From NCBI RefSeq assembly GCF_000060345.1, contig NC_008571.1, positions 1,860,001 to 1,924,000 of the forward strand: a DNA stretch of 64,000 nucleotides, given 5' to 3'. This document shows positions 55,660 through 59,469 of this stretch, in pieces; within the stretch, counting starts at the first letter, position 1, and each line of letters starts with the position of its first letter. Origin of the DNA: Christiangramia forsetii KT0803 (GTDB lineage: Bacteria > Bacteroidota > Bacteroidia > Flavobacteriales > Flavobacteriaceae). The notes below the pieces were generated by a model that saw only the letters and a program-made list of their open reading frames with translations, searched no databases and was not told where the DNA came from. The translations under genes and the position numbers were made by a program.

Positions 55660-56484
55660 ATGAAAAAAATTTCAGCATTTTCAATTCTCACTATCTTATT
55701 TATTCAAATGCTGCATTCTCAAAATTATAAATTGATCTGGAATGAGGAATTTAATTATTCCGGAAAACCTGATGCTGAAAAATGGAATTACGAAACCGGA
55801 TTTATTAGAAATCTCGAGGAACAGATCTATACTAAAAGAAAAAAAAATCTTAGAATTAAAAATGGGAAGCTGGAAATCATTGCCCGGAAAGAAAAAATCA
55901 AGAATAAAAGGTTTGATCCTGAAGTACAAAACTACCGTATAAATACCGAATTCGCAGAATATACTTCCGGAAGTATCAACACCAAAGATAAATTCGAATT
56001 TAAGTATGGTCGTGTAGAGGTAAGAGCAAAACTTCCAAAGGGACAGGGCGTCTGGCCGGCAATCTGGATGTTAGGAGCTAATTTCGAAGAGATTGAATAT
56101 CCCTATGCCGGGGAGATTGATATTATGGAACATGTTGGTAAGGTTCCAGATGAAATTCATGCTACCGTTCATTATCCCTGGGATAATCCGCAGGGAATTA
56201 CATCTAATGGCGGAACCCGGTTATTAGATAATCCTTCCGAAAAATTTCATGTGTACTCGGTTAGCTGGACCGATGAAAAGATCGAATTCTTAATTGACAA
56301 TTCTGTATATCACAGTTTTGATATTGATCAAGCCGGAGAAAAGACCAATCCTTTTAGAAAGCCTTTCTATTTAATCCTTAACCTGGCACTTGGAGGAAAC
56401 TGGGCGGGAGAAGTAAATCCCGAAATTTTCCCCCAGAAGTTTATTATTGATTATGTAAGAGTTTACAAGAAAATTGAAGAATAA
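55660..56484 (+). CDS. Secreted glycoside hydrolase family 16 (beta-glucanase, laminarinase-like)
   Basis: 274 residues with signal peptide MKKISAFSILTILFIQMLHSQ. The GH16 catalytic motif GEIDIMEHVG lies near residues 150-160 (ExDxxE: the two glutamates as nucleophile and acid-base), with upstream WPAIWMLG and downstream NLALGGNWAG. Relatives cleave beta-1,3-glucans such as laminarin. It is not in a polysaccharide-utilisation locus here: no SusC/SusD pair is near. Its stop codon (56482-56484) overlaps the T-run ending the convergent RNase P RNA. Confidence 0.9.
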   Translation: MKKISAFSILTILFIQMLHSQNYKLIWNEEFNYSGKPDAEKWNYETGFIRNLEEQIYTKRKKNLRIKNGKLEIIARKEKIKNKRFDPEVQNYRINTEFAEYTSGSINTKDKFEFKYGRVEVRAKLPKGQGVWPAIWMLGANFEEIEYPYAGEIDIMEHVGKVPDEIHATVHYPWDNPQGITSNGGTRLLDNPSEKFHVYSVSWTDEKIEFLIDNSVYHSFDIDQAGEKTNPFRKPFYLILNLALGGNWAGEVNPEIFPQKFIIDYVRVYKKIEE

Positions 56485-56811
56485 AAAAGCAGGCCTGTAA
56501 GCCGGATTCTGTCACCCGATAATTGATCGGGCTCCTTATCATTTATCTGAAATTAGCGTTGCCACTAATTTTTAGCTGCCTACCCTCCGGCAACGGACGG
56601 GCGATCCTTAGATGCCGGTTTACATGGCATTGCACCGCATAGAGTTTACCTGGTTTCACTACAGCTTAACCTGTACATTCTTTCTGTTGCACTTGTCCTA
56701 ATCTCACGACCGATGGGCGTTACCCATTATGCTACCCTATGGTGTCCGGACTTTCCTCTCCGATCCCGATAGCTATCGGGAAATGTCGGAACGATAAGGC
56801 GGCCTGCTTGC
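56485..56811 (-). ncRNA. rnpB: RNase P RNA (bacterial class A)
   Basis: On the minus strand the region contains GAGGAAAGTCCGGACACC (P4/CRI-like conserved core) near the 5' half and ACAGAATCCGGCTTACAGGC near the 3' end, both diagnostic of RNase P RNA. Helix P1 forms between AAGCAGGCC at the 5' end (56809-56801) and GGCCTGCTT at the 3' end, and TTTTTT follows. The RNA cleaves the 5' leader of precursor tRNAs with RnpA. A -7 box at 56814-56821 fits its start. Ends are accurate to about 5 nt. Confidence 0.96.
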
Positions 56812-56923: not shown

Positions 56924-58885
56924 ATGGAGCATTTCGTAGTATCGGCAAGAAAATACAGGCCACAAACCTTTAAGGATGTCGTTGGCCAGCAGGCTATCAC
57001 AAATACCCTGGCAAATGCCATAAATAATAACCACCTGGCTCAGGCATTATTATTTACGGGACCTCGTGGGGTTGGTAAAACTACCTGCGCTCGTATTCTT
57101 GCAAAAATGATCAATCAGAAGGAAACGCAGGATCCCAATGAGGATTTCGCATTCAATATTTTTGAACTGGATGCCGCCTCTAATAACTCTGTAGATGATA
57201 TTCGAAATTTAATCGATCAGGTTAGAATTCCTCCGCAAGTTGGGAATTACAAGGTCTATATTATTGATGAGGTGCATATGTTATCTGCATCGGCTTTCAA
57301 TGCATTTTTGAAAACACTGGAAGAGCCACCAAAACATGCTATTTTCATCCTGGCAACTACAGAAAAGCATAAGATTATCCCAACGATACTCTCCCGTTGT
57401 CAGATTTTCGATTTCAAAAGAATTACCGTTACCGATGCAAAAAATTACCTAGCCCATATCGCTGAACAGGAAGGCGTAAATGCGGAAGATGACGCCTTAC
57501 ATATTATTGCCCAGAAAGCAGATGGCGCCATGCGTGATGCTCTTTCCATCTATGATAGAGTTGTTAGTTTTAGTGGAAATGATCTTACAAGGCAGGCAGT
57601 TACAGAAAACTTAAATGTTCTGGACTACGATACCTATATGGAGGTAACCGACCTTGTTCTTGAAAATAATATTCCACAATTACTGGTCAAATTCAATGAT
57701 ATTTTATCCAGCGGTTTCGACGGACATCATTTTATAGCCGGTCTTGCATCCCATTTCAGAGATCTGTTAGTTTGCAAAGATCAAAAAACAATTATTCTTC
57801 TAGAGGTTGGAGAACAAACAAAAGCCAAATATTTCGAGCAGTCCCAAAAAGCTTCACATCAGTTTTTATTTGAAGCTATAGAGCTTGCTAATTCCTGTGA
57901 TCTCAAATATAAGAGCAGTCATAATCAAAGATTGCTGGTAGAGCTTTGCATGATGCAACTTGCTTCTATCACCTTTGATTCAGAAAAAAAAAAGTCTGAC
58001 CGGAAAATAATTCCAGCTTCAAATTTTGAACAGGAAGCAGTAAGCATTCCTTCTGAAAAAAAAGAACTTGTTAGAGAAAATGAACATGATATTTCTTCTC
58101 CTTCAGAAGAAAGTTCAATTCCCAAACCTAAAGTTGCCACTGAAACCTGCGCAAAAGAAAATGAAGAGCCTTATTATTCAGAAGAAAGTCCTGCAGAAAT
58201 AAATTCCGTAGGAGAAATACCTGAAGAAGCTGAAATTCAGAAAAAAACTGAAATCAGTGATTTTACTGAAAATGAAGCTCAAAAAACAGGTGAAGAAGAT
58301 TCAGAAAAACCAAAAACTTCTAATTCTGAAATTGTAAATCAGGACGATAAGGATGCCTTCGAGACTGCTGCAGAAGAACCTTCAAAAGAAACCCAACCTG
58401 CAAAAAAAGCTTTTCCTGATATTAAAAGGGAAAAGGTCTCTGGCCTCTCCATTAAAAGTATTGGCAGGAAAAAAGAACTTGCTGAGCAGCAAAAGGCGAT
58501 GATGCCTGTAGAGGAAGTGATGGATGATGATTTTAATGAAGAAGATCTTGTTAAACAGTGGAAAAATTACACCGAAAAATTAAAGAGAAAAGGAGAAAAA
58601 ATACTTGCTTCTATTTTTGAATCGCAGATTCCAACTCTGGAAGATAGGAACATTCATCTTACTTTCCCAAATGAGACCATGAAACTGGATCTCGAAAGAG
58701 AAGAAAACAGGTTGATGACCTATTTAAAAGCTCATTTACGAAACACGCATATTAGCCTTATTATTCATGTAGATGAAGCCACTTCCAGAAAATATGCTTT
58801 TACTCCACAGGAGAAATATGAAAAGCTAAAAGAGGCAAACCCGCTACTTGATAAATTAAGGGCAACATTTGATTTAGACGTTTAA
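56924..58885 (+). CDS. dnaX: DNA polymerase III subunits gamma/tau
   Basis: From ATG 56924, 653 residues. The AAA+ clamp-loader domain has Walker A FTGPRGVGKTTCARI, VYIIDEVHMLSASAFNAFLKTLEEPPKHAIF with Walker B and SRC motif, and domain III to about residue 350. The usual zinc module of four cysteines after the P-loop is absent; the segment reads MINQKETQDPNEDFAFNIFELDAAS. A Glu/Ser-rich linker of ~180 residues and a C-terminal tau-type domain (VEEVMDDDFNEEDLVKQWKNYTEKL) follow. A run of ten A (57984-57993) ends domain III and is followed by stops in both shifted frames, which suggests a short gamma form (see finding). A GTG start at 56891 was rejected. Confidence 0.95.
   Translation: MEHFVVSARKYRPQTFKDVVGQQAITNTLANAINNNHLAQALLFTGPRGVGKTTCARILAKMINQKETQDPNEDFAFNIFELDAASNNSVDDIRNLIDQVRIPPQVGNYKVYIIDEVHMLSASAFNAFLKTLEEPPKHAIFILATTEKHKIIPTILSRCQIFDFKRITVTDAKNYLAHIAEQEGVNAEDDALHIIAQKADGAMRDALSIYDRVVSFSGNDLTRQAVTENLNVLDYDTYMEVTDLVLENNIPQLLVKFNDILSSGFDGHHFIAGLASHFRDLLVCKDQKTIILLEVGEQTKAKYFEQSQKASHQFLFEAIELANSCDLKYKSSHNQRLLVELCMMQLASITFDSEKKKSDRKIIPASNFEQEAVSIPSEKKELVRENEHDISSPSEESSIPKPKVATETCAKENEEPYYSEESPAEINSVGEIPEEAEIQKKTEISDFTENEAQKTGEEDSEKPKTSNSEIVNQDDKDAFETAAEEPSKETQPAKKAFPDIKREKVSGLSIKSIGRKKELAEQQKAMMPVEEVMDDDFNEEDLVKQWKNYTEKLKRKGEKILASIFESQIPTLEDRNIHLTFPNETMKLDLEREENRLMTYLKAHLRNTHISLIIHVDEATSRKYAFTPQEKYEKLKEANPLLDKLRATFDLDV
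57984..57999 (+). promoter_or_regulatory. A10 slippery tract in dnaX with immediate -1 stop
   Basis: Zero frame GAA AAA AAA AAG TCT GAC. A -1 shift reads AAA AAA GTC TGA and stops at 57997-57999; a +1 shift reads AGT CTG ACC GGA AAA TAA and stops at 58008-58010. The tract falls just after the clamp-loader domain III. Confidence 0.6.
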
Positions 58886-58887
58886 TT

Positions 58888-59469
58888 ATGTTAGGACTAA
58901 AATTACCAACAGATCCCAGATGGGCCGATATCGCAGAAAAAAATATTGAAGATATACTTGTAGACCATGCATACTGCGAACAGAAAGCAGCGTCTACGGC
59001 AATTTCTTTGATTGTAACGTATCCAGAATATTCTGAATTGGTCACAGCCATGACCGCCCTCGCCAGGGAAGAAATGGGACATTTTAAGATGGTGCATGAT
59101 CGTCTTCTTAAAATGGGATTCAGCATGGGTTGGGATAGAAAAGATGAATATGTATTAAAACTACGTGAGTTCTTCCCTAAAGGGGGAAGCAGAAGCACCC
59201 AATTAGTTCACCGTCTTCTTATTGCGGGATTAATAGAAGCAAGAAGTTGCGAGCGATTCAGACTACTTTCTGAGGAACTTGAGGATAAGGAGCTGGCTAA
59301 ATTTTACCGTGATCTTATGGTAAGTGAAGCGAATCACTATACCATGTTTTTGAAATTTGCGAGGCAGTATGGTGACCGGGAAACTGTAGATAAAAAATGG
59401 CAGGACCTTTTAGAGTTCGAGGGCGCTATCATGAAAGACTTGGGTGAAAATGAAAGTATTCACGGCTAG
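58888..59469 (+). CDS. miaE: tRNA-(ms2io6A)-hydroxylase MiaE
   Basis: 193 residues, typical of MiaE. The ferritin-like diiron ligands are visible: residues in AYCEQKAASTAISL, the E-x-x-H-like pair LAREEMGHFKMVHDRL and the second ExxH-like VSEANHYTMFLKFA, with LIEARSCERFRLLSEEL between. MiaE hydroxylates ms2i6A37 in tRNA in an oxygen-dependent reaction. It starts 2 nt after dnaX and its stop overlaps the convergent ppx stop by four bases (CTAG). Confidence 0.93.
   Translation: MLGLKLPTDPRWADIAEKNIEDILVDHAYCEQKAASTAISLIVTYPEYSELVTAMTALAREEMGHFKMVHDRLLKMGFSMGWDRKDEYVLKLREFFPKGGSRSTQLVHRLLIAGLIEARSCERFRLLSEELEDKELAKFYRDLMVSEANHYTMFLKFARQYGDRETVDKKWQDLLEFEGAIMKDLGENESIHG

Follow-up and report, generated by a model that had tools for sequence, protein, structure and literature searches.

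The closest described systems are of four kinds. In Thermus thermophilus, dnaX undergoes transcriptional slippage on a run of nine As (Larsen et al. 2000, via PMC1088944 and PMC5009743), and the polymerase mostly adds As at the site (PMC5009743). With GeneTack, two-ORF dnaX genes, in which tau is out of frame and the gamma stop lies in the zero frame, were found in 17 cases from 12 genera, nine of them with ten As, and transcriptional realignment was suggested (Antonov et al. 2013, PMC3711429). In Escherichia coli, the same gene is subject to -1 ribosomal frameshifting on A AAA AAG, stimulated by a Shine-Dalgarno (SD) sequence. Finally, stem-loop-mediated transcriptional slippage is known from an IS element of Roseiflexus (Penno et al. 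2015, as described in PMC5009743), where a nascent-RNA stem-loop lies directly 5' of a T5C5 motif and only deletions are seen. A single nucleotide can reverse which of two products needs the slip (PMC5009743). The purpose of gamma, the short form of DnaX, is a matter of long-standing debate.

Here we describe a run of ten As in dnaX of Christiangramia forsetii, found in a window (the whole stretch of DNA that was analysed) of 64,000 nucleotides; the features of the locus are listed in Table 1. We consider it likely that the run is a programmed transcriptional-slippage site. The evidence for this is comparative; the slippage itself is inferred, without RNA or protein data. The locus resembles that of Thermus in the gene, the A run on the coding strand, tau being a single long frame made without a slip and the stops that follow closely in both other frames, and both sequence criteria of the Thermus type, an A run of about nine or more in dnaX and near stops in the two frames, are met. 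The two expression criteria of that type, dnaX messages of mixed A-run length and gamma and tau made near 1:1, are predictions for C. forsetii. It differs in having ten As where Thermus has nine, and slippage has been measured in Thermus only; furthermore, many relatives of C. forsetii have tau out of frame and most of the near ones have a stem-loop on the 5' side. The GeneTack genes resemble those relatives in which tau is in the -1 frame behind an A10, whereas the tau of C. forsetii itself is in frame. With E. coli, the locus shares the gene and the purpose, a zero-frame A AAA AAG heptamer and a -1 stop soon after it, but it has neither an SD stimulator nor a clear downstream stem-loop, its run is longer and both other frames are closed. 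The likeness to the Roseiflexus element concerns most near relatives, which have a nascent-RNA stem-loop directly 5' of the slippage motif; that case has the same geometry, a hairpin and then a 10-nt hybrid (PMC5009743). Unlike there, the motif is A10, the gene is a core replication gene, the stem-loop of C. forsetii itself is weak, and slippage in both directions is inferred.

In the literature searched, supplementary files excluded, only Antonov et al. (2013) and a 2016 review were relevant, and no report was found of a class-wide run, of repeated switching or of the stem-loop in Bacteroidota. In the relevant passages of PMC3711429, neither in-frame genes as part of the same system, nor repeated switching, nor a stem-loop is described; the nine A10 species of that study may possibly be Bacteroidota. 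Within these limits, slippage in Thermus dnaX and the two-ORF genes are known, and the class-wide run, the repeated switching and the stem-loop appear to be new.

Table 1. Features of the C. forsetii dnaX locus, in window positions
Feature	Positions	Strand	Basis or remark
dnaX, full-length tau frame, ATG start, 653 aa + stop	56924..58885	+	NCBIfam PRK14971 and TIGR02397, Pfam, E. coli clamp-loader chains
Clamp-loader part (domains I-III), codons 1-348, common to tau and gamma	56924..57967	+	Pfam, NCBIfam
Weak stem-loop ATCA-CCTT-TGAT, 4 bases 5' of the run	57968..57979	+	Stem search; remnant or weak form of the relatives' stem-loop
Likely A10 slippage site, GAA AAA AAA AAG	57984..57993	+	Sequence; conservation in relatives
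TGA that would close the -1 (or +1 A) product at 358 aa	57997..57999	+	Sequence; stops kept in relatives
TAA that would close the +1 (or -1 A) product at 361 aa	58008..58010	+	Sequence; stops kept in relatives
Stretch coding the conserved tau C-terminal domain; frame marker in relatives	58508..58882	+	C-terminal domain profile

The identity of the gene rests on Pfam and NCBIfam matches and on solved E. coli clamp-loader chains. The run is flanked by G57983 and G57994, is read in the zero frame as TCA GAA AAA AAA AAG TCT GAC and spans codons 354-357, GAA being codon 354. Since the match to TIGR02397, the N-terminal part of DnaX, ends at residue 346 and that to Pfam domain III at residue 348, the run opens the tau linker. 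By codon count, the shifted product would have 358 residues if one A were gained (or the ribosome slipped by -1) and 361 if one A were lost (or the ribosome slipped by +1). The sequence-only reading had claimed an A10 run with TGA in the -1 and TAA in the +1 frame, a position at codon ~354 between domain III and the tau linker, and the absence of an SD-like stimulator upstream; these claims held, and its ~358-residue product from either slip becomes 358 and 361 residues. Across both strands of the whole genome, exact A10 occurs seven times and no longer run is present. No open frame of at least 60 codons spans three of the other six sites; a fourth is found between two tRNA genes, a fifth just 5' of a start codon and the last inside a 115-codon stop-to-stop frame of uncertain status.

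The run is strongly conserved. The nearest named loci belong to Christiangramia/Gramella, with 96 and 95% identity in the N-terminal part of DnaX, and all 24 genomes of the genus, the present one included, have exactly ten As followed by G. At least nine As are found at the site in each of the 80 nearest named relatives (lengths A9-A13, A10 in 74). In an even draw of 198 Bacteroidia genomes, 191 gave the site region, and 160 of these, representing 57 of 65 families, have the run, its length being ten in 116 loci, nine in 28, eleven in 15 and twelve in one. In an outgroup of 41 genomes hand-picked from 89 of the same phylum outside the class, the count is 23. Control windows of equal length in the same genes contained nine or more As in 0/1557 cases upstream and 7/668 cases later in the gene. 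Conservation of the run in related flavobacteria had been set as the check on the sequence-only reading and its replacement by synonymous AAG codons as the refutation; the former held, and the latter was not seen in the 24 genomes of the genus.

One could argue that the run has no function and merely reflects AT-rich codons for lysine and glutamate in the tau linker. The peptide EKK[KN] is indeed common at the site, and for a near relative, synonymous recoding alone yields nine or more As about half the time (mean p 0.49). However, the runs observed numbered 66 against 32.5 expected under the synonymous-codon null among near relatives and 114, in 138 genes, against 47.6 expected in the class, both above all 20000 simulations; the null ignores kinship among the genomes. 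GC-rich genes of the class (N-terminal GC at least 50%) also retain the run, in 26 cases out of 32, compared to only 5 of 19 in the outgroup. Moreover, codon usage would leave unexplained both the off-frame stops and the intact out-of-frame tau domains described below. Chance and codon bias as the source of the run were ruled out by the null and by the windows elsewhere in the genes, and we regard this explanation as all but excluded. What does speak against the slippage-site reading is the absence of the run from 31/191 genomes of the class and 18/41 of the outgroup, together with its low count in the GC-rich outgroup genes. Three families of the class (f24, f46 and f33) lack it in all their sampled members (five, five and four, respectively), and none of these is among the out-of-frame genes; the families seem to manage without the site and would make useful natural controls.

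The frames beside the run are closed with similar regularity. Within the genus, the -1 stop is at +3 in 23 genomes and at +9 in one, and the +1 stop is at +8 to +17, so that both other frames end close by in all 24. Where the run is present and tau is in frame, 98% of 66 near relatives and 77% of 114 class genes have a stop in each of the other two frames within 15 nt; at later codons of the same genes, the figures are 12% and 8%. Early off-frame stops, the other part of the check just mentioned, are thus kept. When every gene with a run and an assigned frame is counted, the out-of-frame ones included, each of the two unused frames meets a stop within 30 nt in 78/79 near relatives, 148/158 class genes and 21/23 outgroup genes; the two unused frames of the out-of-frame genes are mostly closed as well. 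Two congeners (L356 and L357) have a new, earlier +1 stop at +8, and the ATA that usually bears the +1 stop has become ATC; we infer that such turnover within the genus is what would be expected if one stop suffices.

A pattern that the sequence-only reading could not see concerns the frame of tau, which we assigned with a profile of the tau C-terminal domain. Among near relatives, tau is in frame in 66, in frame 2 in nine and in frame 1 in four, one contig being too short; in the class, the numbers are 141, 41 and three, with six undetermined. Hence tau is out of frame in 13/79 and 44/185 genes with a known frame. In the class, this state is tied to the run, being seen in 43/158 genes with it and in 1/27 without (Fisher p 0.006). 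In those 43 genes the zero frame ends as gamma, and therefore tau itself needs the slip. The out-of-frame domains are intact, with a stop codon in none of 61, and they are under purifying selection: their median dN/dS is 0.089 (22 of 38 pairs with finite dS), and that of in-frame pairs is 0.100 (63 of 155). The dN/dS values are rough because some of the pairs are reciprocal and dS approaches saturation. On a FastTree tree built from 279 N-terminal proteins, the tau-or-gamma state shows at least 35 changes, with 24 among the 194 rows with exact A10, and eleven families of the class contain more than one tau frame; errors of the single-gene (dnaX) tree may inflate the count of changes. Many of the changes are one-base indels next to an intact A10 and so cannot stem from miscounted homopolymers, an error that is possible for changes with A9, A11 or A12 in draft genomes.

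Frequent flips also invite the idea of a hypermutable tract, in which replication slippage switches frames within the population, either as phase variation or as simple decay. A10 is unstable in DNA and the frame of tau does flip often between species. Against this, the length is exactly ten in the whole genus and in 116 of the 160 class loci with a run, many flips lie beside the run and not in it, selection still purifies the out-of-frame tau and two closed frames are maintained. We find this explanation very unlikely.

Three exceptional cases deserve mention. The gene L176 (genome G191, family f21) is the only one of the class with an out-of-frame tau but no A run; it counts against the slippage-site reading, though it might have a different slippery site, be broken or contain a sequencing error. 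In all five genes of family f44 (L283-L287), A9 is combined with tau in frame 2, the bases 5' of the run are purine-rich and GGAGGT or GAGGT is present in three; conceivably, they form a separate subtype with an SD-like stimulator. In L290 (G025, a genome of 0.49 Mb), the dnaX frame ends one codon past domain III and no tau domain was found in any of the three frames behind the stop; this reduced genome possibly makes only a gamma-like DnaX.

Whether it is the polymerase or the ribosome that slips has to be judged from the form of the site. The rival explanation is an E. coli-like -1 slip of the ribosome on A AAA AAG, giving gamma in C. forsetii and tau in genes with tau in frame 2. In its favour, every one of the 24 genomes of the genus has the heptamer in frame, and genes with tau in frame 2 number 60, as against 8 with tau in frame 1. 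The tRNA-Lys argument against ribosomal slippage is of no help: among 44 tRNA matches of C. forsetii, both lysine tRNA genes have the anticodon UUU and no other was found, as in E. coli, so that with the heptamer in frame a -1 slip of the ribosome is possible. Downstream of the run, class loci are slightly richer in structure (mean z -0.61 compared with -0.16; z below -2 in 13% compared with 4%), with no such excess in near relatives, and PMC5009743 mentions unpublished E. coli-like signals in Chlorobium phaeobacteroides. However, the zero frame ends in AAG in only 18/79 near relatives and 38/160 class loci, and the run is held at 9-11 though seven As are enough for a ribosome. The frame that a -1 slip never enters is closed too, and tau is in frame 1 in eight genes, three of which have exact A10. 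SD-stimulated frameshifting was dropped as a candidate: SD-like motifs are found upstream in none of the 80 near relatives and in 8 of 160 class loci, the same as in the control, and Bacteroidia ribosomes do not recognise SD (PMC9976891). The run lies in all three codon phases in the class (112, 26 and 22 loci) and is followed by G in 72, T in 48 and C in 40. The free phase and next base, together with the run length, the closure of both frames, tau in frame 1 and the lack of an SD signal, favour RNA polymerase, and we also count the stem-loop abutting the run in relatives towards it. The predominance of frame 2 would be expected if the polymerase mostly adds As, but equally under -1 ribosomal slippage. 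All in all, we hold ribosomal slippage to be unlikely and transcription, the route that the sequence-only reading had guessed, to be the probable one, in the absence of RNA or protein data.

The stem-loop is the other feature that the sequence-only reading could not see. In the 80 near relatives, the 30 nt ending at the run fold with a mean of -8.35 kcal/mol against -3.49 for synonymous variants, every one being lower; in the 160 class loci, the means are -6.54 and -4.76, with 111 lower (Wilcoxon p 5e-12), and by family, 46 of 57 are lower (p 1e-5). The folding profile is at its maximum at the run, -8.4 compared to -1.3 ten bases upstream in near relatives and -6.5 compared to -3.1 in the class. 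A stem scoring at least 8 and ending within 6 nt of the run was found in 69/80 near relatives (68 gapless) and 56/160 class loci (31 of 57 families), against 3% and 6% in the respective controls, and its sequence varies from family to family. The Flavobacteriaceae stem forms 89% of its pairs over 91 rows, and an A-U pair has turned into G-C in Aquimarina and L061. Over 25 distinct arm pairs, however, the paired fraction of 0.675 is within the partner-shuffle range (mean 0.621, maximum 0.685), and covariation alone is no more than suggestive; the claim rests on the synonymous test, the position profile and the per-family test. One alignment misplaced the 3' arm of several Aquimarina rows, and no counts were taken from that alignment.

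The hairpin does not hold everywhere. C. forsetii lacks a strong stem-loop directly 5' of the run, its own copy being weak (score 5, gap 4, fold -1.0), and a fold of -8 kcal/mol or better is reached in only 3 of the 24 genomes of the genus. On average, no folding excess is seen in the outgroup (-4.57 versus -4.28, p 0.87) or at A9 loci (mean +0.47, n=28), as opposed to -2.31 at A10 loci (n=116). The weak copies in the genus and the missing excess in the outgroup and at A9 loci count against our explanation. Whether tau is in or out of frame makes no clear difference to the strength of the stem-loop (p 0.08).

Our explanation, programmed transcriptional slippage, would work as follows. RNA polymerase would gain, or less often lose, As while the RNA:DNA hybrid covers the run, and the dnaX messages would then carry varying numbers of As. 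Those with 10 (or 10 ± 3n) would give full-length tau, and the others would reach TGA or TAA at most six codons past the run, their product being gamma-like with 358 or 361 residues. In most near relatives, a nascent-RNA hairpin ending at the first A would form at the exit channel as the ten As fill the hybrid and would probably promote slippage; C. forsetii, with only a weak form, would depend on the run alone. The run, the stops, their conservation, the frame changes, the purifying selection on out-of-frame tau and the hairpin of the relatives are shown by computation. The occurrence, level and direction of slippage and the role of the hairpin are inferred. The recoding reading made from sequence alone was right and, if anything, understated: the comparative evidence is strong, and expression remains an inference.

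A bolder reading, which we could argue either way, is that dnaX of Bacteroidia carries a terminator-like slippage cassette, in many lineages with a hairpin joined to an A10 of hybrid length. Slippage would be efficient enough for selection to preserve the run and two closed frames while being nearly indifferent to the frame of tau, the default and the slipped product swapping places repeatedly. RNA polymerase would then determine the gamma:tau ratio, which could vary with the speed of transcription or with elongation factors. Indifference to frame predicts a high slippage efficiency, which is directly measurable. With the site kept in most Bacteroidia examined, missing in a few families and often switched in frame, nature provides experiments on gamma and on the gamma:tau ratio, and the hairpin with A10 is a simple model of the way in which a structured nascent RNA might cause the polymerase to slip in a core gene. 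Where dnaX is annotated as split in Bacteroidota, it would then probably be a functional gene and not an error or a pseudogene.

As for the neighbourhood, an RNase P RNA gene (56482-56810, minus strand; Rfam RF00010, 210.8 bits) lies divergently just upstream of dnaX. A MiaE-like tRNA hydroxylase gene (58888-59469; Pfam PF06175) follows directly after it, and a Ppx/GppA phosphatase gene comes next on the opposite strand.
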